Source: Lysobacter sp. ISL-50
Lineage (GTDB): Bacteria > Pseudomonadota > Gammaproteobacteria > Xanthomonadales > Xanthomonadaceae
NCBI RefSeq assembly: GCF_018612875.1
Contig: NZ_JAGGRI010000004.1
Coordinates: 208,276-268,231 of the forward strand
Length of the DNA: 59,956 bases
Direction: 5' to 3'
In this document: piece by piece, positions 4,710-59,659 of the stretch
How the letters are laid out: each line of letters opens with the position of its first letter
Numbering within the stretch: the stretch's first letter is position 1
Program-made: the position numbers and the translations under genes
Notes under the pieces: model-generated
What the model was told of the DNA's origin: nothing
The model's database searches: none
Seen by the model: only the letters and a program-made list of their open reading frames with translations

Positions 4710-5813
4710 ATGGATTCGGCGCACAAAACCCGGCTTTCGCTCGACCCCGCCGCGATCAAGGGCCGCGGCTCGGCGTCCTATGTCGCCGGCCGTTACGCGG
4801 TCACCACCGCGCAGGCGCAGGACGACGGCTGGGGCTCGGTGTACGAGGATGCCGACGCGCAGTCGCGGCCCGACACCGTGGTCACGGAGGAGCGCGCGCG
4901 CAGCATCATCAGCCGCAACGATTCGCCGGACATCGCCTTCGGCCAGTCGGTCAATCCGTATCGCGGCTGCGAGCACGGCTGCGTCTACTGCTTCGCCCGG
5001 CCCTCGCATGCGTATCTGGAGCTGTCGCCGGGCCTGGATTTCGAGACCCGGCTGTTCGCCAAGACCAACGCCGCCGAGCGGCTGCAGAACGAACTCGCGC
5101 GCCCAGGCTACCGTTGCGCGCCGATCGCGCTGGGCATCAACACCGATTCCTATCAGCCCATCGAGCGCCGCTACCGCATCACCCGCGGCGTCATCGAAGT
5201 GCTGGACGCCTGCTCGCACCCTTTCAGCCTCATCACCAAGAACGCCTCGGTGGTGCGCGATGTCGAAGTGCTGGCCTCGATGGCGCGGCGCGGGCTGGTG
5301 TCGGTGTATTTCTCGGTCACCACGCTCGACAATCATCTGTCGGCGAAGATGGAACCGCGCGCTTCGGCGCCGCATTCGCGGCTCAAGGCGATGCGCACGC
5401 TGGCCGATGCCGGCGTGCCGGTCGGGGTCATGGTCGCGCCGGTGATTCCGATGATCAACGACAGCGAAATGGAGCGCATCCTCGCCGCCGCCCATGAGGC
5501 CGGCGCGCGCTCGGCCGGTTACGTGACCCTGCGCCTGCCGCATGAACTCAAGCAGGTGTGGCGCGAGTGGCTGCAACTGCATTACCCCGATCGCGCCGCG
5601 CATGTGATGAGCCTGATCCAGCAGATGCAGGGCGGCAAGGATTACAACGCCGGTTTCGGCAAGCGCATGCGCGGCGAAGGGCCGTTCGCGAAGCTGATAC
5701 AGCAGCGCTTCCACAAGGCCTGGCGCAAGCACGGCTACGGACGCTTGCCGCCGCTGGATACCGGCCGTTTCGTCGCGCCGCGCAAGCCTACGCCGCAGTT
5801 GGAACTGTTCTGA
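4710..5813 (+). CDS. PA0069-type radical SAM protein
   Basis: A 367-residue radical S-adenosylmethionine protein. The cluster motif is CEHGCVYC at about residues 89-96, inside the family signature NPYRGCEHGCVYCFARPSHAYL. A barrel follows with GINTDSYQPIERRYRITR and the SAM-domain segments ITKNASVVRD and VSVTTLD, typical of the PA0069 / spore photoproduct lyase-like group. The substrate is unknown; homologues are annotated only as radical SAM proteins. The C-terminal QLELF resembles a beta-clamp-binding pentapeptide (QLxLF), which would fit a DNA-related role, but this is an inference. Single gene, convergent with the TPR gene that follows. Confidence 0.93.
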   Translation: MDSAHKTRLSLDPAAIKGRGSASYVAGRYAVTTAQAQDDGWGSVYEDADAQSRPDTVVTEERARSIISRNDSPDIAFGQSVNPYRGCEHGCVYCFARPSHAYLELSPGLDFETRLFAKTNAAERLQNELARPGYRCAPIALGINTDSYQPIERRYRITRGVIEVLDACSHPFSLITKNASVVRDVEVLASMARRGLVSVYFSVTTLDNHLSAKMEPRASAPHSRLKAMRTLADAGVPVGVMVAPVIPMINDSEMERILAAAHEAGARSAGYVTLRLPHELKQVWREWLQLHYPDRAAHVMSLIQQMQGGKDYNAGFGKRMRGEGPFAKLIQQRFHKAWRKHGYGRLPPLDTGRFVAPRKPTPQLELF

Positions 5814-5877
5814 GCGCTGCGGCGCGGGCGCGAGGCGGTGCAACCGCTGCGATCGCGCGCAGCGTGAAAAACTGTGA

Positions 5878-7785
5878 TCAGCGCTTGGCCAACAGGCCGC
5901 GCGAGCAATCGAGCGAAAGCCTTGAGGCCTGGAAATACAACTTCGCATCGGCTCCGTCCAGGCGCTTGTTCGCGACCTGCTCGCGGCCGAAGTGTTCGCT
6001 CAACACGCCGTGACGCTCGATTTCGCCGAGATAATCCTGCGCCTGGCGCGCGTATATGCGCGCCTGGGACAGATGCTCGCGATCGCTCTTGAGGGCCTTG
6101 CGTAAGGCGGTCAACGCATCCTCGCGGCGGCAGGTGGACATGGCGTACAGGGCCCGGTACATCAATGCTTCGTGGATCAAGGTGCGCGTCGGCAGCGGCA
6201 GCGACTGCTCGCCGTCTCTGGCCTGGACGAACCTGGCGAATTGCTCGTCGGCCTGGACTTGGCGGCCGTCGCGGTACATCACCGACGCCAGGGTGAAATC
6301 CACGTAGGAACGCGCCGCCGCGCGCGCCGGCAGGTACTGGTGAATATCGACTTGCACTTCGCGCAGGATGCGTTCGGCGCGCGGCAGTTCGTGCTCTGGC
6401 GCGCGCATGGCCAGGGCGATGCCCACCGTCATTTTTTCGTAGGGCATGGGGATATCGGTTTCGCTGCCGGTCTGGACCAAGTCCTCCAGCATGCCCAGGC
6501 CTTCGCGATAGTCTGGCGAATCCCAGCGGCTGTCCAAGCCGAAGGTGAGCTTGGTCGCGAGGTTGAATCGCACTCGCAAAGTTTGCTCGTGGGTCGGGCC
6601 GAACGCCTGCTCGCAAATCTTCACCGCCTCGCGCGCCTTGCCCACGCTGCTGTCGTAGCGCATGTGCATGTAGTCGTGCAGCGATTCCAGGCGCAGCACT
6701 TCGGCGTACTCGGGATGGCGCGCGCCATAGCTGGCCAGGACGATGGCCTTGCCGTGCCGCAAGGCGCCGATGCTGTCGCTGATGCGGCCGGCGTTGTATT
6801 GGGCGTCGGACTGCGCGATCCAGGCGCGGCCGGTATCGGGATGCCGCGCGCCCAGATGCGCTTGCCGGTCGGCGACCAGTTGTCCGGCCTCGGCGATCGC
6901 GCGCTCGGGCTGTTCGCTGTAACTGAGCATCCGCACCAGTTGGTAGCGCGCGTTGTCGGCCTGGGTCGTGCCCTGGCTCATCGCGATGGCCTGGGCGAGA
7001 TCGTGTTCGGCGCCGGTGAAATCGAAGCGCCGTCCGCGCCATTCGCCGCGCTGGCTCAGCAGTTCGGCGATCAGTCCGGCATTGGGCGGAACCAGGGTGC
7101 GAGCCTGCGCCAGCGCGTCTTCCAGCGAACTCATCGCGCCGTCGTCGTCGGCCAGGCCCCATTGTGCGCGGCTGAGTTCGAGCTGCAGGCGCAGCCGATC
7201 CAGGCGCGTGGCCATGTCGATGCCGTCGTGGCCGCGACGCAGTGCGGTCTTGGCGATTTTTTCCGCCGGCGCGTAACGCGCTTGCAGATTCAACAGCGAC
7301 ACCGTGGTCGCGGTGACGGAAAGATTCTCCAGGCCGTGCCGGTCGAGCAGGCCGTTGGCTTCGCCGGACAAGCGCTCGGCCTGGGCGTAGCGGCCGATCA
7401 GGGCGTGGCTGCGCGCCAGCACCGACAGCCCACAGGCCAGGGTCAGCGCCTGATCGGATGAAGCCAGGCGACGCAGCCGCACCTCGGTGTCGATCAGCCG
7501 CGCGACCGAAGCGAACGGCGCGCGGTCCAGATGGCAGATGGCGTCGACGCCGAGGCGGGACTCGAACAAGGCCGCGACCTGGGCGTGAACCCGCGCCGAG
7601 CGTTCGAGGTCGTGGCGATGTTGCTTGACGGAATAGACGGCGAAGGCGGCGGCGGCCAGCAGCGCCAACGTGGTGAGCGCCAGCCAGAGGCGGACGCGGG
7701 TCTTCGCGCGCGGCCGGTCCGCGCGGGCGACAGCGTCGCCGGCAAGTGGGGAGGTGGTGGCCATCGGTCGGTGGTCTCTCGACAT
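5878..7785 (-). CDS. Membrane-anchored TPR-repeat protein (kinase-less)
   Basis: A 635-residue protein with a short basic N-terminus, one transmembrane helix (about residues 30-52) and a large periplasmic region of degenerate tetratricopeptide helices, readable for example in ARSHALIGRYAQAERLSGEA, WIAQSDAQYNAGRISDSIGAL and LRVRFNLATKLTFG. The layout, single helix then TPRs with the R.HDLERSARV linker, matches the C-terminal half of Ser/Thr kinase-TPR proteins such as the one at 52135-54936, but no kinase domain is encoded upstream. The start is uncertain: GTG 7794, ATG 7785 and ATG 7764 are in frame and none has a strong ribosome site. A role as a scaffold or sensor is only an inference. Confidence 0.82.
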   Translation of the reverse strand: MSRDHRPMATTSPLAGDAVARADRPRAKTRVRLWLALTTLALLAAAAFAVYSVKQHRHDLERSARVHAQVAALFESRLGVDAICHLDRAPFASVARLIDTEVRLRRLASSDQALTLACGLSVLARSHALIGRYAQAERLSGEANGLLDRHGLENLSVTATTVSLLNLQARYAPAEKIAKTALRRGHDGIDMATRLDRLRLQLELSRAQWGLADDDGAMSSLEDALAQARTLVPPNAGLIAELLSQRGEWRGRRFDFTGAEHDLAQAIAMSQGTTQADNARYQLVRMLSYSEQPERAIAEAGQLVADRQAHLGARHPDTGRAWIAQSDAQYNAGRISDSIGALRHGKAIVLASYGARHPEYAEVLRLESLHDYMHMRYDSSVGKAREAVKICEQAFGPTHEQTLRVRFNLATKLTFGLDSRWDSPDYREGLGMLEDLVQTGSETDIPMPYEKMTVGIALAMRAPEHELPRAERILREVQVDIHQYLPARAAARSYVDFTLASVMYRDGRQVQADEQFARFVQARDGEQSLPLPTRTLIHEALMYRALYAMSTCRREDALTALRKALKSDREHLSQARIYARQAQDYLGEIERHGVLSEHFGREQVANKRLDGADAKLYFQASRLSLDCSRGLLAKR

Positions 7786-52134: not shown

Positions 52135-54936
52135 CTAACCGGTCAACTTGCGCATCAGTTCGTCGGCCTTGACCCGTTCGGGCGCATCGGCGGGCAGTTT
52201 GTCCCGCACCACCGGTATCACCTCGTCGAGCAGCCGCCGCGCCGCGGCGCTCTCGCCGCGTTCGATCTCGATGCTCGCCGCCACCAGTTTCAGCTTGGCG
52301 ATCATCACCGCGTTATAGCCCGGCGCCTTCGCCGCGCTGGTCAGCGCCTCGCTCATGCGTCGCGAGGCCAGGGCCAGATCGCCGCGCTTGCGCGCCAGTT
52401 GCGCGCTGAGCGCATCGATGCCGGGTTCGAAGTTGCGTTGCTCCGGCTTGCCGCCATCGACCGCGCGCTTGGCGGTGTCGAGCAACTGCTGGGCCTGATC
52501 GAACTGCTCATCCTTCATCCGCAGCTTGGCCAGCTGCAGCTGCGAACCGATCATGCCGTCGATATCGCCCAGTTGCCGGGCCAGCCCGATCGCCGCCTCG
52601 AAATCGAGGTAGGCCTCGTCCTTGCGCTCCAGCGCCATCAGCGCCTTGGCGCGGCTGGCGTGCGCGCGCTGGCGCCAGGTCAGCTGCGCGGTTTCGTTCG
52701 TGTCGGCGCGCGCGGCCAGCAGCGCGAGCGCGGCGGTTTCCATCTCCAGCGCCTGCGCGGCATCGCCGGAAAACAGGTGGAAGGTGCCCAGGTTGATCTG
52801 CAACTGCGCCATCGTCAGCGCCTGCAGCCCCAACTGCTGGGCGATGGAGTAGGCGCGCTGGTAATGCGCGAGGGCTTCGTCGCGACGGCCGGCCTCGCTC
52901 AGGCTGGCGGCCAGATCGTTCTCCATCTCCATGGTCAGGCGGCTGCGTTCGCCGTAGGCCTTGTAGGCCAGGCGCACGGCTTGTTCGCCTTCGGCGATGG
53001 CCTCGTCGTGGCGCGATTGCAGGCGGCGCAACTGCGCGGTCAGCAGATGGACGATGTACCCATCCGGATGGTTCTCGCGCCAGCCCGAGCGCGCCGCGCT
53101 TACCGCTTCGTCGAGACGGCGCTGCGCCAGCGGCAGGTCGCCGGCGTCCATCGCCGGGGTGACCAGGGCGATGCGCAAGTGCGCGCGCAGCTCCGGGGCT
53201 GTTTCGCCGGCGCGATCGAGCACGCCCAGGGCGTGGCGCACATAGCGTTCGGTGGTTGCGCCGGAGGCCGCGCGCACGGCCACGGCGATGTACTGGTAGT
53301 AGGCCTGCGCGATCGCCACCGCATCTTCGGGCCGGCGTTCGCGCATCACGATCAGGCGCTTGAGCTCGCGCATGGATTCGTCGAAGCGGTCCAGCCCGGC
53401 CAGCGAGGCGCCGTGCACGCGCAGCACCCGCGCGTCGAACTCGGGATCGCGCAGGCCGGCGCCCGCCATCAGCGTCCTGGCCTTGTCGGCGGCGTCGAGC
53501 GCGGCTTGCGGATCGAGGATGGCGTCGTAGACCTCGGCGATGGTCAGCCAGGCGATGGCGCGGGTGCGCGGGTCCTGACCTTGTTCGGCCTGCAGTTGCT
53601 CCGAGGCGCGCGCCAGCAGCGTGGCCACCGTGATCGGCTCGCCGCGGATCGATTGCGGCGCGGTCTGCGCCAACACCGAGGCGAGGAAGTTGCGCGAGGC
53701 CTCGGTGTAACCGGCCTCGCGCTCGGCGCGCAGGCGCGAGAGCTGCGCCGCGTATTCGGCCGCGAGCGCGCGCTGGCGCTCGCTGTCCAGCCGCCACACG
53801 AACAACCCGGCCGCGGCCAGCGCGACCACGGCGGCGGCGGTGGCCAGGCGATGGCGGGCGACGAATTTGCGCAGCCGGTAGACCGGGCCGCCGACCGCGA
53901 CCGAGATCGGCAGTCCGTCGAGATAGCGCTGCACGTCGGTGGCCAGCGCGGCCACGGTGGGATAGCGCTCGTCCGGTGCTTCGGCGCAGGCGGCCAGCAC
54001 GATGCGGTCGAGATCGCCGCGCAAGGCGCGCCGCAACGCCGGGTCGTGTGCGTGCTTGCCCGGCGCCGGCACCGGTGCGTCGCGGCCGCGCACGTCGGCC
54101 AGTTTGCGTTCGCTGAGCAGATCGAACAGCAGCGCGCCCAGGCCGAACACATCGGTGGCGGTGGTCGCGCGTTCGCCGCGGCGTTGTTCGGGCGCGCTGT
54201 AGGCGGGTGTGAACGCGACCGTCGCGGTCAGCGCCGGGCGTTCCTCGTCGCCGGCCATCAGCGTGGCGATGCCGAAGTCGAGCAACACCGGCGCGCCGTC
54301 GGCGCGCACCACGATGTTGGACGGCTTGAGGTCGCGATGCAGCACCAGCCGCTGATGCGCGTGCTGGACCGCGTCGCACAATCGCAGGAACAGGCGCAGG
54401 CGTTGCCGCGTCGTGCCCGGCGTCGCCGCCAGATACTCGTGCAGCGAGGCGCCTTCGACATAGTCCATGACCAGATACGGCTGGCCGCTTTCGCTGACGC
54501 CGCCGTCGATGTGGCGGGCGATCTGCGGATGGTCCAGGCTCGCCAGCAAGCCGCGTTCGCGCGCCATGCGCCGGTTGGCGGCCTGGGTCGGCAGGCCGTG
54601 CAGCAGTTTCAGCGCGACCCGCTGCACGCCGTCGCCAGCATCGCGCTCGGCCAGGAACACCGTGCCCATGCCGCCGGCGCCGAGTTCGCGCAGCAGCCGA
54701 TACGCGCCGACCTGCCTGGCGGTGGCGGCATCGGGCGCGGCGAAGGCCTGCGCGAGGCGCTCGGCCAGCGGATCGGAGCTGTCGTCGTGAGCGGCATGTT
54801 CGAGCAGGCGCCGCACCGCCGCGCGCACGTCCGGATCGGGCTCGGTGTCGAGCAGATAGCGCTCGCGCAGCGACGGCGGCTGGGTCAGCGCGGCGTGGAA
54901 GGCTTCTTCGACCCGCGCGTGCTGTTCCGGCGTCAT
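52135..54936 (-). CDS. Ser/Thr protein kinase with transmembrane helix and TPR domain
   Basis: A 933-residue receptor kinase. The cytosolic kinase domain (about residues 80-350) has the Gly loop LGAGGMGTVFLAER, Lys in VALKLLHG, catalytic loop LHRDLKPSNIVV, DFG in VLLDFGIATLM and APE in PAYSAPEQRRG. One helix (about 378-398) leads to a periplasmic TPR array of more than 400 residues. Its gene overlaps the upstream ECF sigma-factor gene by four bases, a pairing common in xanthomonads and myxobacteria. The start ATG 54936 begins MTPEQHARVEEAFHAAL, a short helical head. Confidence 0.95.
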   Translation of the reverse strand: MTPEQHARVEEAFHAALTQPPSLRERYLLDTEPDPDVRAAVRRLLEHAAHDDSSDPLAERLAQAFAAPDAATARQVGAYRLLRELGAGGMGTVFLAERDAGDGVQRVALKLLHGLPTQAANRRMARERGLLASLDHPQIARHIDGGVSESGQPYLVMDYVEGASLHEYLAATPGTTRQRLRLFLRLCDAVQHAHQRLVLHRDLKPSNIVVRADGAPVLLDFGIATLMAGDEERPALTATVAFTPAYSAPEQRRGERATTATDVFGLGALLFDLLSERKLADVRGRDAPVPAPGKHAHDPALRRALRGDLDRIVLAACAEAPDERYPTVAALATDVQRYLDGLPISVAVGGPVYRLRKFVARHRLATAAAVVALAAAGLFVWRLDSERQRALAAEYAAQLSRLRAEREAGYTEASRNFLASVLAQTAPQSIRGEPITVATLLARASEQLQAEQGQDPRTRAIAWLTIAEVYDAILDPQAALDAADKARTLMAGAGLRDPEFDARVLRVHGASLAGLDRFDESMRELKRLIVMRERRPEDAVAIAQAYYQYIAVAVRAASGATTERYVRHALGVLDRAGETAPELRAHLRIALVTPAMDAGDLPLAQRRLDEAVSAARSGWRENHPDGYIVHLLTAQLRRLQSRHDEAIAEGEQAVRLAYKAYGERSRLTMEMENDLAASLSEAGRRDEALAHYQRAYSIAQQLGLQALTMAQLQINLGTFHLFSGDAAQALEMETAALALLAARADTNETAQLTWRQRAHASRAKALMALERKDEAYLDFEAAIGLARQLGDIDGMIGSQLQLAKLRMKDEQFDQAQQLLDTAKRAVDGGKPEQRNFEPGIDALSAQLARKRGDLALASRRMSEALTSAAKAPGYNAVMIAKLKLVAASIEIERGESAAARRLLDEVIPVVRDKLPADAPERVKADELMRKLTG

Positions 54937-55505
54937 GGCGACAGGTACTCGCGCAGCCAGGCCTTGGCGAAACTCAGATCGCGTTCGACCGTGCGCACGT
55001 TGACGGCCAGCGCCTCGGCGATCTCGTGCTGCTTCAGGCCGACCAGGAACGCGAGCTCGATCACCCGGCATTGGCGCGGATAGGCCTCGTCGAGCGCGAC
55101 CAGCGCCTGTTCGACTTCCATCCAGCGTTGATCGGCGGGCGCGGCGGCCTGGTTCTGGCCCAGGGTCGAATCCAGCGAGGTGATGATCACCTCGCCGCCG
55201 CGCTTGTCGGCCTGGCGCTGGCGGATCACGTCGATCAGCGTGTAGCGGATCGCGGTCGCGGCGATGCGGAAGAAGTGTTGCCGGTTCTGCGCGTCGAGCT
55301 TGTCGTCGAGCAGGCGCAGCAGCGCTTCGTTGACCAGTTCGGTCGGATCGATGACCGATCGCCCGATGTGCGCCAGCCGCCGCAATGCGATGCCCTTGAG
55401 CTCGCCGTAGACCAGGCGGTACAGCGCGTCGCGCGCATCGCTGTCGCCGCCGTTCCAGGCGTGCAGCAAGCGGGTGACGTCTCCTTTCGTCGCTTCGTCC
55501 GTCAT
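54933..55505 (-). CDS. ECF-like sigma factor (TIGR02999 type) paired with the kinase
   Basis: A 190-residue sigma factor beginning MTDEATKGDVTRLLHAWNGGD. Region 2 reads LYRLVYGELKGIALRRL and LVNEALLRLLDD...NRQHFFRIAATAIRYTLIDVIRQRQ; region 4 is LDEAYPRQCRVIELAFLVGLKQHEIAEALAVNVRTVERDLSFAKAWL. This group has no anti-sigma factor and is nearly always followed by a Ser/Thr kinase gene, as here. A strong ribosome site (GGAGGAAGG) precedes the ATG. It is divergent from the peptide operon with 188 bases between starts. Confidence 0.94.
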   Translation of the reverse strand: MTDEATKGDVTRLLHAWNGGDSDARDALYRLVYGELKGIALRRLAHIGRSVIDPTELVNEALLRLLDDKLDAQNRQHFFRIAATAIRYTLIDVIRQRQADKRGGEVIITSLDSTLGQNQAAAPADQRWMEVEQALVALDEAYPRQCRVIELAFLVGLKQHEIAEALAVNVRTVERDLSFAKAWLREYLSP

Positions 55506-55681
55506 GGCCCTTCCTCCGTGCGCGGCCCAGCATACGACGCCGTCGCCGCCGTGGCATGCGCCTTCGGTCGGGCTTTCTGAACTCGTACACGCCGGTGGCG
55601 AAAAAACTTCGCGGCCGTGTCGGGTTTCGCCGCCGCGCTGCGAACTGTGGGAAGAAGGTGGCGATCGAAGCTCACCTGCCC

Positions 55682-55686
55682 AGGAG
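55682..55686 (+). promoter_or_regulatory. Ribosome site fixing the start of peptide 1
   Basis: AGGAG at 55682-55686 is seven bases before ATG 55694 and only one base before the in-frame ATG 55688, so the leader begins MKQID rather than MLMKQID. Confidence 0.7.
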
Positions 55687-55693
55687 AATGCTC

Positions 55694-55879
55694 ATGAAGC
55701 AGATCGACCCGAATGTACTGACCGGCATCGCCGGCGGCGCGGATGTCGTCGTCGCCGACGACGGCGGCATGCAGGCCCAGCGCGGCCCGCACATCGATTT
55801 CCCGCCGCGGCCGTCGCCGCCGCCGCCGTGGTGGGTGTTCGTGCCCGAACCCTTGCCGTGGCCGTTCGACCGGCTCTGA
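55694..55879 (+). CDS. Double-glycine-leader proline-rich peptide 1
   Basis: A 61-residue precursor. Leader MKQIDPNVLTGIAGG (residues 1-15) has Ile at -12, Leu at -7, Ile at -4 and Gly-Gly at -2/-1, all positions read by C39 peptidases. The 46-residue core has an acidic start (ADVVVADDGG) and, from residue 32, a proline-rich part with PPRPSPPPPWWVFVPEPL and the end PWPFDRL: 12 Pro, 3 Trp, no Cys. An alternative GG at 24-25 lacks the upstream hydrophobic pattern. A C39 transporter gene lies 364 bases downstream. It may be an antimicrobial or a signal peptide; not a family I recognise. Confidence 0.8.
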   Translation: MKQIDPNVLTGIAGGADVVVADDGGMQAQRGPHIDFPPRPSPPPPWWVFVPEPLPWPFDRL

Positions 55880-55972
55880 GCGCGACGCCGGTCGCTGTCT
55901 TGCCGCGGCGCAGGGACGCGCAGCGGTTCACCCCGTCATGGACGCGCGCACCGCTCTAACGAGGTCATCGCC

Positions 55973-56134
55973 ATGCACGTCATCGACACCGCGCAACTGA
56001 GTCAGATCGCCGGCGGAAAATCGACCATACGACCGCCGCAAATGGAGCCGTTCCAGCCGCCGAGCCCGCCGCAACCCGAACCGTGGCACCCGCCGCAGGT
56101 GCCGCCGATTCTGCCGTTTCCGTGGATTCGCTGA
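55973..56134 (+). CDS. Double-glycine-leader proline-rich peptide 2
   Basis: A 53-residue precursor, too short for most gene finders. Leader MHVIDTAQLSQIAGG is the same length as that of peptide 1 and identical at 8 of 15 places (M1, I4, D5, L9, I12, A13, G14, G15). The 38-residue core has 15 Pro with PPSPPQPEPWHPPQVPP and ends PPILPFPWIR; no Cys. GAGG is eight bases before the ATG. The cores of the two peptides differ in order but share composition and an aromatic/Pro end with Arg. Conservation of leader over core is what marks this as a gene. Confidence 0.78.
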   Translation: MHVIDTAQLSQIAGGKSTIRPPQMEPFQPPSPPQPEPWHPPQVPPILPFPWIR

Positions 56135-56243
56135 GCGGCATCGAGGAAGCGTCGAGTCGCGCGTCCGCCGCCGTCGCCCGGATCGGGGCCGGCGGTCGGC
56201 CAGCGCATCGTTGCCGCCGCTGCATCGCGCGGAGCCGCAAGGC

Positions 56244-58406
56244 ATGAACTCCAAACACAGCATCGTCCAATCCGAAGCGGCCGAATGCGGGCTCGCCTGT
56301 CTGGCGATGATCGCCGCTCATCACGGCCAGCACCTGGGCTTGCGCGAATTGCGCGGGCGCTTTCCGCTGTCGCTCAAGGGCGCGAACCTGAGCCGGCTGA
56401 TCGAAGTCGCGGGGCAACTGGGGCTGCAGGCGCGGCCGTTGCGGCTGGAGCTGGACGAGCTGGATCAACTGCGCACGCCCTGCATCCTGCATTGGGATCT
56501 GAACCATTTCGTCGTGCTGGCGCGGGTGCGCGGCGCGCGCGCGACTGTCCTCGATCCGGCGGCGGGCGAACGCACGCTGAGCCTGGCCGAGGTCTCGAAA
56601 CATTTCACCGGCGTGGCGATGGAGCTGTCGCCGGTCGCCGGCTTCGAACGCGTCGCCGCGCCGCCGACGATCGCGCTGAGCCAACTCACTGGCCGCGTTA
56701 CCGGCCTGTGGCGCTCGCTCGGCCTGTTGCTGGGCCTGTCGGCGGCGCTGCAGGTATTCGTTTTGGTCGCGCCGTTCTTCATGCAGGGCGTGGTCGATCA
56801 GGTGCTGGTTTCGGCCGACCGCGATCTGCTGACCGTGCTGGGGCTGGCGTTCGCCGCCTCGGTGCTGTTCCAGGCCGGCATCGGCCTGCTGCGCGGCTGG
56901 GCGGTGGTGTATCTGTCCACGCGGCTGGGGCTGCAGTGGATGGGCAACGTGTTCCATCATCTGTTGCGCCTGCCGATGAATTTCTTCGGCAAGCGCCATC
57001 TGGGCGACATCGTGTCGCGCATGGGCTCGGTGCAGAGCATCCAGCGCACGCTGTCGACCAGTTTCGTCGAAGCGATCATCGACGGCCTGATGACCGTCGC
57101 CACGCTGGCGATGCTGCTGATCTACAGCTGGAAGCTCGCCGGCCTGACCTTGCTCGCGGTCGCGCTGTATCTGGGCCTGCGCGTGCTGGCGTTCCGGGCG
57201 ATGCGCGACGGCACCGAGCAGCAACTGATCGCCGCCGCGCGCCAGCAGAGCTTTCTGCTCGAATCCATCCGCGGCATGCAGTCGCTCAAGCTGTCCGGGC
57301 GCGAAGCTTCGCGCGAGGCTGGCTACGGCAATCTGATGAACGAAAGCCTCAACCGCGACGTGTGGCTGGCGAACCTGGGCCTGAAGTTCAGCGGCGTGAG
57401 CCAGTTGATCTTCGGCCTGGAACGCGTGGCGGTGATCTGGATCGGCGCGAAGCTGGCGATGGACAACGTGTTCTCGGTCGGCATGCTGATCGCTTACCTG
57501 AGCTACAAGGATCAGTTTTCCGGCCGCGTCTCCGGGCTGATCGACAAGGGCATGGAACTGCGCATGCTGCGCCTGCACGGCGAGCGCCTGGCCGACATCG
57601 TGCTGGAAGCGCCCGAGCCGCAGACCGCGCCGCGCACGTTGGCGCCGGCCGCGGATGCGGCCGCCATCGCCACCGATATCGACGTGCGCGGGCTGAGCTA
57701 TCGCTACGCCGAGGGCGAGCCGTGGGTGCTGCGCGATTGCAACCTGCGCGTCGCCGAGGGCGAATCGGTGGCGATCGTCGGCGCCTCGGGCTGCGGCAAG
57801 ACCACCTTGATCAAGCTGATGCTGGGACTGACCACACCCGGCGAAGGCGCGATCGCGGTCGGCGGGCACGACATCGGCAAACTCGGCCTGCGCGCCTACC
57901 GCGGCATGATCGGCGTGGTGATGCAGGACGATCAGCTGTTCGCCGGCAGCATCGCGGAGAACATCGGCTTCGACGACGACTGCGATCCGGCGCGGGTCGA
58001 AGCCGCGGCGCGGCTGGCCGGCGTGCACGAGGACATCGTCGCCATGCCGATGGGCTATCACGGCCTGATCGGCGACATGGGCAGCAGTCTGTCGGGCGGG
58101 CAGAAGCAGCGGTTGATTCTGGCGCGCGCCTTGTACCGGCAGCCGCGAATCCTGTTTCTCGACGAAGCCACCAGCCATCTCGACGTGCATAGCGAGCGGC
58201 TGGTCAATCAGGCGGTCGCCGGGCTGGCGTTGACGCGGGTGATCATCGCCCATCGCCCGGACACCATCGCCAGCGCCGATCGCGTGCTGGTCATGGCGGA
58301 CGGACGCATCGTGGAGGAATACCGACCGGCCGATCGCGTGCGCAATCTCGGCGAGCGATGGCGCGAAGCCGCGTCCAAGGGCGCCGCCGCGGGGGCGCCG
58401 GCATGA
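56244..58406 (+). CDS. Peptidase-containing ABC transporter (C39 PCAT)
   Basis: A 720-residue inner-membrane exporter that cuts GG leaders and exports the peptide. The C39 domain (residues 1-135) has Gln9 and Cys15 in IVQSEAAECGLACLAMIA, His88 in LHWDLNHFVVL and Asp104 in ATVLDPAAG, so the triad is complete. Six helices (about 160-420) follow, then the ATPase with Walker A VGASGCGKTTLIK, signature SSLSGGQKQRL, Walker B PRILFLDEATSHLD and the H-loop IIAHRPDTI. The start at 56244 (GGAG nine bases upstream) begins MNSKHSIVQSE. It overlaps the next gene by four bases (ATGA). Confidence 0.95.
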   Translation: MNSKHSIVQSEAAECGLACLAMIAAHHGQHLGLRELRGRFPLSLKGANLSRLIEVAGQLGLQARPLRLELDELDQLRTPCILHWDLNHFVVLARVRGARATVLDPAAGERTLSLAEVSKHFTGVAMELSPVAGFERVAAPPTIALSQLTGRVTGLWRSLGLLLGLSAALQVFVLVAPFFMQGVVDQVLVSADRDLLTVLGLAFAASVLFQAGIGLLRGWAVVYLSTRLGLQWMGNVFHHLLRLPMNFFGKRHLGDIVSRMGSVQSIQRTLSTSFVEAIIDGLMTVATLAMLLIYSWKLAGLTLLAVALYLGLRVLAFRAMRDGTEQQLIAAARQQSFLLESIRGMQSLKLSGREASREAGYGNLMNESLNRDVWLANLGLKFSGVSQLIFGLERVAVIWIGAKLAMDNVFSVGMLIAYLSYKDQFSGRVSGLIDKGMELRMLRLHGERLADIVLEAPEPQTAPRTLAPAADAAAIATDIDVRGLSYRYAEGEPWVLRDCNLRVAEGESVAIVGASGCGKTTLIKLMLGLTTPGEGAIAVGGHDIGKLGLRAYRGMIGVVMQDDQLFAGSIAENIGFDDDCDPARVEAAARLAGVHEDIVAMPMGYHGLIGDMGSSLSGGQKQRLILARALYRQPRILFLDEATSHLDVHSERLVNQAVAGLALTRVIIAHRPDTIASADRVLVMADGRIVEEYRPADRVRNLGERWREAASKGAAAGAPA

Positions 58407-59659
58407 GCGCGCTGAGTTTCCGCGACGAAGTGCTGCAGGCGCGGCGCGGCAGCTGGCTGGGCGGAATTTCGCTGCTGCAGCCGCTGCGCTTGTGGATGCT
58501 GGCCGCGGTCGCGATCGCATTGGCGCTGACGGTGATCGCGTTCCTGCTGTTCGGCGAATACTCGCGGCGTTCGCGCGTGGCCGGCGAACTGGTGCCGGAC
58601 CTGGGACTGGCCACGGTGGTGGCGCCGGTCAGCGGGGTGATGCTGCGATCGTTCCCGCAGGAAGGCGACCGCGTCGCCGCCGGCGGCGCGCTGAGCCTGA
58701 TCCAGATCCCGCGCGTCACCGGTTCGGGCACCGACGCCAATGCCGCCAGCGGCGCCGGCATCGCCGAGCGCCGCGACAGCCTGCGGCGCATGGATCGCGC
58801 GATGGCCGCGCAGAGCGAGGTGCAGCGCGGCGGCCTGAGCCGGCAGATCGGCGAACTGCGCCATGAGCTTGCGCAGATCGAAGCCGAGATCCGGACCCGG
58901 ACCGAGCAGGTGCGCATCGCCCGCGAGACCGCCGGGCGTTATCGGCTGGTGTTGGAGCAGAAATACGTCAGCGAGTTGCAGCTCAAGCAGCAGGAGCAGA
59001 CGGTGCTGGAACTGCTGAGCCAGCAGCAGGCGATGCAGCGTCAGGCCACCGGTTTGCGCCGCAATCTGGCGCAACTGGAGCAGGGGCTGGCCGAACTTCC
59101 GACGCAGCGCATGCAACAGCGCGCCGACAATCAACGTCAGCTGGCGCAGTTGGAACAGGACCGGGTGCAGCAGGAAGCCAACGGCGAGATGATGGTCAAC
59201 GCGCCATTGGCCGGCCTGGTCGCCAGCCGCCTGGTCGAGCCCGGTCAGGCGGTGCAGGCCGGGCAGCCGTTGTTGAATCTGTTGCCGGCGGGAGCGCGGT
59301 TGCAGGCGCAGTTGCTGGTGCCAAGCAGCGCGATCGGTTTCATCGCGCCGGGCAATGCGGTGTTGTTGCGGTATCGGGCGTTTCCGTATCAGAAGTTCGG
59401 CCAGCATCGCGGGCGGGTAGTGCGCATCTCGCGCAGCGCGATGGCGCCGCGCGAGGGCGACGCGGGGGCGGCGAGCAGCGGCGAGGCGATGTATCGGGTG
59501 ATCGTCGCGTTGGATCGGCAGTCGATTCTGGCGTATGGCAAGCCGGAGGCGTTGCGGCCGGGGATGGCGATCGAGGCGGATATTCTTGGCGAGCGGCGGC
59601 GACTGTTCGAGTGGTTGTTGGAGCCGTTGTATTCGCTTGATGGGCGGATGGGACGCTGA
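58403..59659 (+). CDS. HlyD-type membrane-fusion protein
   Basis: A 418-residue periplasmic adaptor. Residues 1-25 are cytosolic (SFRDEVLQARRGSWLGGISLLQPL is typical of adaptors paired with PCATs), helix 28-50 anchors it, and a biotinyl-lipoyl-like segment (VVAPVSGVMLRSFPQEGDRVAAGG) is followed by a long alpha-hairpin coiled coil (about 130-265, Gln/Leu/Arg-rich) and the second lipoyl half VNAPLAGLVASRLVEPGQAVQAG. It joins the transporter to an outer-membrane TolC channel, which must be encoded elsewhere because none is in the window. Confidence 0.94.
   Translation: MSALSFRDEVLQARRGSWLGGISLLQPLRLWMLAAVAIALALTVIAFLLFGEYSRRSRVAGELVPDLGLATVVAPVSGVMLRSFPQEGDRVAAGGALSLIQIPRVTGSGTDANAASGAGIAERRDSLRRMDRAMAAQSEVQRGGLSRQIGELRHELAQIEAEIRTRTEQVRIARETAGRYRLVLEQKYVSELQLKQQEQTVLELLSQQQAMQRQATGLRRNLAQLEQGLAELPTQRMQQRADNQRQLAQLEQDRVQQEANGEMMVNAPLAGLVASRLVEPGQAVQAGQPLLNLLPAGARLQAQLLVPSSAIGFIAPGNAVLLRYRAFPYQKFGQHRGRVVRISRSAMAPREGDAGAASSGEAMYRVIVALDRQSILAYGKPEALRPGMAIEADILGERRRLFEWLLEPLYSLDGRMGR

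Follow-up and report, generated by a model that had tools for sequence, protein, structure and literature searches.

Near one end of a 59,956-nucleotide stretch of Lysobacter sp. ISL-50 (RefSeq assembly GCF_018612875.1, contig NZ_JAGGRI010000004.1, positions 208,276 to 268,231 of the forward strand; hereafter the window), two short genes encoding proline-rich peptides with a double-glycine (GG) leader precede a C39-peptidase ABC exporter (PCAT; 720 residues, 56244..58406, PF03412, PF00664 and PF00005) and a HlyD-family periplasmic adaptor (418 residues, 58403..59659, PF13437), all on the forward strand. The first precursor (55694..55879) has 61 residues, divided into a 15-residue leader and a 46-residue core, and the second (55973..56134) has 53, with a leader of the same length and a 38-residue core; the gaps around them span 93 and 109 bp. 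Shine-Dalgarno-like sequences precede both genes (AGGAG at 55682..55686 and GAGG at 55961..55964, forward strand), and peptide 1 would be longer by two residues if translated from an alternative in-frame ATG at 55688. The exporter retains the catalytic residues Cys15, His88 and Asp104 of its peptidase domain, together with Gln9, and the ATPase motifs GASGCGKT (Walker A), LSGGQ and ILFLDE (Walker B), and its C39 domain matches 12 distinct sequences of solved structure (best 6mpz, 1.6e-22; also 4ry2 and 3k8u).

The two leaders, MKQIDPNVLTGIAGG and MHVIDTAQLSQIAGG, are identical at 8 of 15 residues and share Ile at −12, Leu at −7, Ile at −4 and Gly-Gly at −2/−1. Proline makes up 12 of the 46 core residues of peptide 1 (26%; net charge −3) and 15 of the 38 of peptide 2 (39%; net charge +1), encoded mostly by CCG; the cores end in WPFDRL and PFPWIR, respectively, and neither contains tyrosine or cysteine. 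Calculated average masses are 5187.8 and 4448.2 Da for the two cores in unmodified form, and 3497.0, 4156.7, 4294.0 and 5742.4 Da for four cores of the relative G013 (below). The original prediction for this locus had described a compact export system consisting of two tandem genes of 61 and 53 codons with a shared leader, cores that are one-quarter to two-fifths proline, and an intact C39 transporter followed by its adaptor, and we recover each of these elements. Neither window peptide matches any model in Pfam/NCBIfam scans at E values up to 1, and the peptides of related strains gave weak matches below the curated cut-offs (four of the six tested in one scan and one in the other). GG-leader peptides of Gram-negative bacteria have often been sought through their likeness to known microcins.

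The same cassette is present in 3 of 20 Lysobacter genomes, namely the window strain and two relatives, G010 (locus L145) and G013 (locus L108, taken as Lysobacter sp. Root916), whose exporters share 77.7% and 75.6% identity with that of the window. Short frames of this kind at homologous loci, proposed at the outset as a check on the prediction, are found in both relatives. Five short genes accompany the exporter in G013 (three upstream and two downstream of HlyD) and four in G010 (three upstream and one downstream); in both genomes the first upstream gene fell outside our search pattern and was recognised by reading the sequence. The window contig stops 297 bp downstream of HlyD, so that a second peptide block of the window strain would lie out of view. 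Hydrophobic residues at −4, −7 and −12 with a GG or Gly-Ala (GA) end occur in 11 of the 12 leaders checked, the exception being the first upstream gene of G010 (its G013 homologue was outside this set). The peptides of the window strain differ strongly from those of G010 and G013. Over four G010/G013 gene pairs, the ratio of non-synonymous to synonymous substitution rates (dN/dS) is 0.31 in frame (dN 0.092, dS 0.292) and 1.8 and 1.7 in the two other frames, and a three-pair version gives 0.28 in frame against 2.09 and 1.46. Leader and core are both conserved in these pairs (dN 0.081 and 0.096). Could the short genes have arisen by chance in GC-rich DNA, next to an exporter of some other cargo? 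CCG-rich DNA does yield proline in random frames, and CCG is the main proline codon here; however, the selection acts in frame, Shine-Dalgarno-like sequences precede the genes of the window and of the relatives, and shuffled exporter flanks gave only 0.04 proline-rich GG open reading frames (ORFs) per survey against the 9 found (below). We rejected this explanation on the shuffle null and the dN/dS values and give it almost no credence. Given the recurring cassette and the dN/dS of 0.31, the two short ORFs of the window are, by sequence criteria, genuine genes, with purifying selection visible on their homologues.

To place this cargo among those of related exporters, we surveyed the family, in which at least 164 of 395 genomes encode a C39 domain like that of the window (1e-12). 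The survey covered 160 loci, mostly around the matches listed, of which 150 yielded an exporter by the criterion used; the other ten comprised three short or broken frames and seven loci fetched for other reasons. Same-strand GG ORFs within 3.5 kb of the exporter numbered 80, in 57 of the 150 loci, and their cores have a median proline content of 5%; a further four GG ORFs lay on the opposite strand. These counts are lower bounds, since the GG pattern overlooks leaders such as RAAVGG, and part of the 80 resemble membrane-protein or chance frames. Dinucleotide-shuffled exporter flanks gave 3.3 GG ORFs per survey and 0.04 with at least 25% Pro (25 repeats). Nine of the 80 have a core with at least 25% proline: the cassettes of the window, G010 and G013 account for seven, and the 71 ORFs elsewhere for two (L244 and L307). 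Proline content of this order is unusual for the cargo of this exporter family. Two more proline-rich GG peptides (42% and 29% Pro) occur in Aquimonas voraii (L109), about 4 kb from the exporter and on the opposite strand, and so are not counted among the nine.

In a quick exporter tree (77 of 190 extracted sequences), the three Lysobacter cassette exporters form a single clade (SH-aLRT 99), apart from the other rows labelled proline-rich (Aquimonas, L244 and L098), although the Aquimonas branch is long and its position unsure. A profile built from 11 peptides found strong matches only in its four source genomes among the 395 of the family; the next-best family matches scored 1.6e-4 to 7.2e-4 and include two GG peptides whose Pro content is 21% and 24% (G108 and G185). 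The survey also brought up other peptides around these exporters. At L244 of G200 (5041-6155, reverse strand), at least four tandem GG peptides lie past the exporter, one with 26% Pro. A GG peptide family with a conserved LNTVTxTPNGDGGDDG core lies just past the exporter in L101 (8204-8389), L102 (8204-8392) and L105 (6961-7146), a similar core occurs in L154 (5171-5326), and the LNTVTVT of the L101/L102/L105 core resembles a TonB box. Another post-exporter family, in L153, L155, L289, L290, L309 and L325, has the common core string THATGPNGDDP.

No immunity or modification gene was recognised in the cassette, from the window gaps and from ORFs and sequence read in the G010 and G013 cassettes, with the window contig ending 297 bp past HlyD; to this extent the system is as compact as predicted. 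These features bear on a first alternative, that the peptides are class II microcins or bacteriocins whose cores kill related bacteria after export, in a two-peptide arrangement. A cassette that combines a GG leader with a PCAT and HlyD, tandem paralogous peptides and the predatory and antagonistic life of Lysobacter (as stated in the part of PMC6653060 available) would all suit such a role. The lack of a recognised immunity gene, in gaps of 93 and 109 bp and in the two relatives' cassettes, does not, nor do cores that are proline-rich rather than Gly/Ala/Ser-rich or Cys-bridged and that carry a net charge of −4 to +1 across 11 peptides. On balance we regard this alternative as unlikely. The missing immunity gene and the absence of positive charge argue against an ordinary bacteriocin or a proline-rich antimicrobial peptide (PrAMP), and we rejected the PrAMP reading because the window cores are not cationic.

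The composition of the cores also bears on whether they are host-directed mimics of the RaxX kind. The core of RaxX is itself proline-containing, and the relative Root916 is presumably an Arabidopsis root isolate. In Xanthomonas, RaxX is made as a 60-residue GG-leader precursor that is cleaved and exported by the PCAT RaxB, according to the available part of PMC6637879. RaxX, however, requires a sulfated tyrosine and a sulfotransferase encoded in its cluster, whereas the window cores contain no tyrosine and no sulfotransferase was found among the few neighbouring genes scanned in the window (whose contig ends shortly after HlyD) and in L108. We consider this alternative very unlikely. RaxX nonetheless qualifies the statement in the original prediction that these peptides belong to no recognised class: a PCAT-exported GG peptide is known in Xanthomonas, but one that depends on a tyrosine lacking here. 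Being neither cationic nor tyrosine-containing, and lacking a recognised immunity gene, the window peptides thus fit neither the typical PrAMP nor the class II microcin or RaxX.

Beyond the original prediction, the cassette has a putative regulatory neighbour. Divergent from it lie an extracytoplasmic function (ECF) sigma factor gene (190 residues, 54933..55505, reverse strand, TIGR02999/PF07638; sigma2.2 motif DPTE) and, overlapping it by 4 bases, a gene for a Ser/Thr protein kinase (933 residues, 52135..54936, reverse strand, PF00069 and TPR_12) with the catalytic motifs GAGGMG, HRDLKPSN, DFG and YSAPE, one predicted membrane segment around residue 365 (a hydropathy peak) and a TPR region, which we propose as the sensor and activator of the sigma factor. 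All three genomes with the cassette have this pair in divergent orientation to it, and a kinase homologue adjoins the sigma gene in G003, G004, G010, G011, G013 and G015. In G003, G004 and G011 the pair stands without an exporter in the 15 kb fetched and is followed by homologues of the rhomboid and methyltransferase genes that lie beyond the cassette in L108. Because the cassette-free loci are flanked in this way, gain or loss of the cassette seems to have taken place at a single fixed site. The sigma2.2 motif is DPTE in all 11 homologues of at least 59% identity, with Thr, D and E kept, and reads QATS, QPTS or QVTS in the 9 examined of 17 more distant matches.

Between pair and cassette, 47 bp upstream of the peptide 1 start codon, lies a proposed promoter of the sigma factor, TGTCGGGTT-N14-CGAACT (55618..55646, forward strand). 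With a spacer of 8 to 24 bases, this is the single exact site in the window, and none occurred in 100 shuffles; a motif copy of its own precedes each peptide block in G010 and in G013. When the spacer was left free over the same range in the 20 Lysobacter genomes, 16 of 21 sites had 14 bases between the boxes. Across 345 family genomes, TGWCGGGTT-N14-CGAACT gave 24 exact sites in 11 genomes, ten of them Lysobacter, against one site for the reversed pattern. The motif is present in 10 of 10 Lysobacter genomes with a sigma homologue of at least 59% identity and in none of the ten others, seven of which have distant sigma matches only and three no match at 1e-30. Nine of the 11 DPTE sigma genes have a site in divergent orientation no further than about 310 bp away that matches the T form of the pattern with one mismatch or none. 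From the position of the motif and its co-occurrence with sigma homologues, we infer that it is the cognate promoter of the adjacent ECF sigma factor. At the level of sequence, comparison of the loci shows one recurring cassette of GG-peptide genes, C39 exporter and HlyD, behind a motif whose occurrence in the genus follows that of close homologues of the sigma gene. The recurrence of the cassette, the purifying selection and the intact C39 site give good support to the predicted export system, in which the proline-rich GG peptides are the likely cargo.

Among the 14 other exact sites in Lysobacter, two stand before the second peptide blocks, in G010 and in G013, and four belong to the window genome. 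Three of the latter precede an 89-residue protein, a 135-residue protein (both with signal-peptide-like starts) and a GA-leader peptide (C69:3258). This last is an orphan 55-residue peptide (L381 3004-3171, reverse strand) with the exact motif and a Shine-Dalgarno-like AGGAG ahead of it; no exporter was noticed in the ORF list around it, which covers 9,000 of the 9,694 bases of the contig. We considered contig C69 as a continuation of the window contig and rejected this, as homologues of the isochorismatase, rhomboid and methyltransferase genes located past the cassette in L108 are absent from the same 9,000 bases.

In sister species the motif stands before other genes. At the G015 locus (L356 8960-12355; G015:C1) it lies divergent of the sigma gene and is followed by a 52-residue ORF and a 926-residue RamC_N/Pkinase/LANC protein, an apparent class III/IV lanthipeptide (lanthionine synthetase) locus. 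Near-identical ORFs begin 83 bp past the motif in G019 (L202 1-1101, reverse strand) and G017 (L204 3-1100, reverse strand), both open to the locus end; the first 149 residues of the G019 ORF match the acyltransferase PF00698, which suggests a polyketide-type locus under the switch. G003 and G004, which lack the cassette, have nonetheless kept the motif (L351 2968-3204 and L352 2645-2884); there it precedes a Pro/Ala-rich ORF of 78–79 residues that ends in FAPYRW and has no GG leader; its in-frame dN/dS of 0.59 is weakly below 1. Payloads behind the motif in these species look like specialised metabolism, and the sigma/kinase pair with its motif is perhaps a switch with interchangeable payloads.

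Such an arrangement speaks to the possibility that the peptides are themselves signals, a quorum or stress cue read by the extracytoplasmic TPR region of the kinase in a closed loop. Signalling roles of GG peptides are established, the pair is divergent to the cassette wherever the cassette occurs, and the locus has no toxin or immunity logic. A closed loop fits poorly, however, with the pair standing without a cassette in G003, G004 and G011, with other payloads behind the same motif and with peptides that differ so strongly between the window strain and its relatives; we therefore think it quite unlikely. The role originally proposed, antibacterial or signalling, stays at the level of a possibility.

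Our preferred explanation, which we hold as rather probable taken as a whole, is that the cassette exports linear proline-rich peptides under the control of a kinase switch. The TPR part of the membrane kinase would detect an extracytoplasmic signal, and the kinase, by analogy with PknS and EcfK, would phosphorylate the ECF sigma factor, perhaps at the DPTE threonine; the sigma factor would then start transcription at TGTCGGGTT-N14-CGAACT. The C39 domain, acting as in its characterised relatives, would cut the precursors behind Gly15, releasing cores of 46 and 38 residues that would leave, unmodified, through an ABC/HlyD/TolC conduit. Outside the cell they might act in antagonism or defence, the least certain step. 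Their target, in our view, is more likely to be fungi, protists or a host than close kin, given that we recognised no immunity gene and that in sister species the motif also precedes an acyltransferase gene and a locus for a lanthionine synthetase. More tentatively, and at somewhat short of even confidence, we suggest that the Lysobacter membrane kinase and DPTE ECF sigma factor form a switch with a divergent TGWCGGGTT-N14-CGAACT promoter whose payload is swapped in evolution (proline-rich GG peptides with their exporter, lanthionine synthetase, polyketide-type acyltransferase or other small peptide genes), and that the proline-rich peptides are a new exported class made on a phospho-signal for defence or antagonism.

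Several observations weigh against parts of this explanation. The reversed control of the free-spacer search still gave 3 sites against the 21, and allowing one mismatch to the T form gave 33 sites in 11 of the 20 genomes (reversed control 4), one of them in G009, which lacks a close sigma homologue. The 10-versus-0 co-occurrence corresponds to 5e-6 as an exact split, a value that is too strong given the relatedness of the genomes, as the split is not phylogenetically independent. The sigma homologue of G011 (77% identity) has neither a divergent motif nor a cassette, the second close sigma copy of G004 likewise has no divergent motif, the window-genome site C44:111778 has no convincing gene behind it, and G005 has the motif with no clear acyltransferase ORF behind. 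DPTE retains acidic residues, so that sigma activity may not strictly need phosphorylation. On the side of the peptides, the leader of the first upstream gene in G010 and G013 is imperfect, giving Leu at −12 and Val at −4 but Arg at −7 when read to GGG, and the peptide profile has no strong match outside the family (best 2.6e-4 in 369 genomes of the class and 0.0058 in 398 of the phylum).

What we regard as new here are the family of proline-rich cargo peptides, the promoter proposed for it and the apparent swapping of payloads; the export machinery and kinase/ECF pairs were known already. In the titles and opening lines of abstracts among the open-access papers listed by our searches, we found no description of such proline-rich GG peptides, of this motif or of payload swapping. 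The cassette offers a defined, testable cargo of two linear cores that match no family model, together with a candidate promoter and a kinase/sigma pair through which it might be switched on. Should the promoter be correctly assigned, the motif would be a handle on silent loci for peptides and metabolites in Lysobacter, which is of interest for biocontrol, and the pair would represent a kinase/ECF switch whose payload varies between species.

Known systems resemble parts of this one. The class II microcin and bacteriocin exporters (CvaAB, PCAT1 and the ComA class) share with it a GG leader with hydrophobic residues at −4, −7 and −12, a C39 exporter and HlyD; the cassette of the window differs by its cores of 26–39% Pro, where theirs are Gly/Ala- or Cys-rich, by the absence of a recognised immunity gene and by the neighbouring kinase/ECF sigma pair. 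Animal PrAMPs such as apidaecin and Bac7 are likewise short, linear and proline-rich, while the window cores are not cationic and come with a bacterial GG leader and exporter. RaxX-RaxSTAB of Xanthomonas, as far as described in the accessible part of PMC6637879, resembles the cassette in its precursor of about 60 residues with a GG leader, its PCAT and its adaptor; the cassette is set apart from it by several paralogous peptides, tyrosine-free cores in the window and no sulfotransferase among the scanned neighbours. For the regulatory pair, the closest counterparts are EcfK/PknS (ECF43) of Xanthomonas citri and EcfP/PknT of Vibrio parahaemolyticus, which, in the portions of PMC13147305 and PMC8999054 available, likewise place an ECF sigma factor with a Thr in its sigma2.2 region beside a transmembrane Hanks-type kinase; in X. 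citri, PknS directly phosphorylates EcfK, for resistance to amoebae. According to the same portions, sigma2.2 reads QATE in EcfK and QTTA in the ECF43 consensus, with the acidic DxxD lost, compared with DPTE here, and the target there is a type VI secretion system, whereas here it would be a peptide-export cassette.

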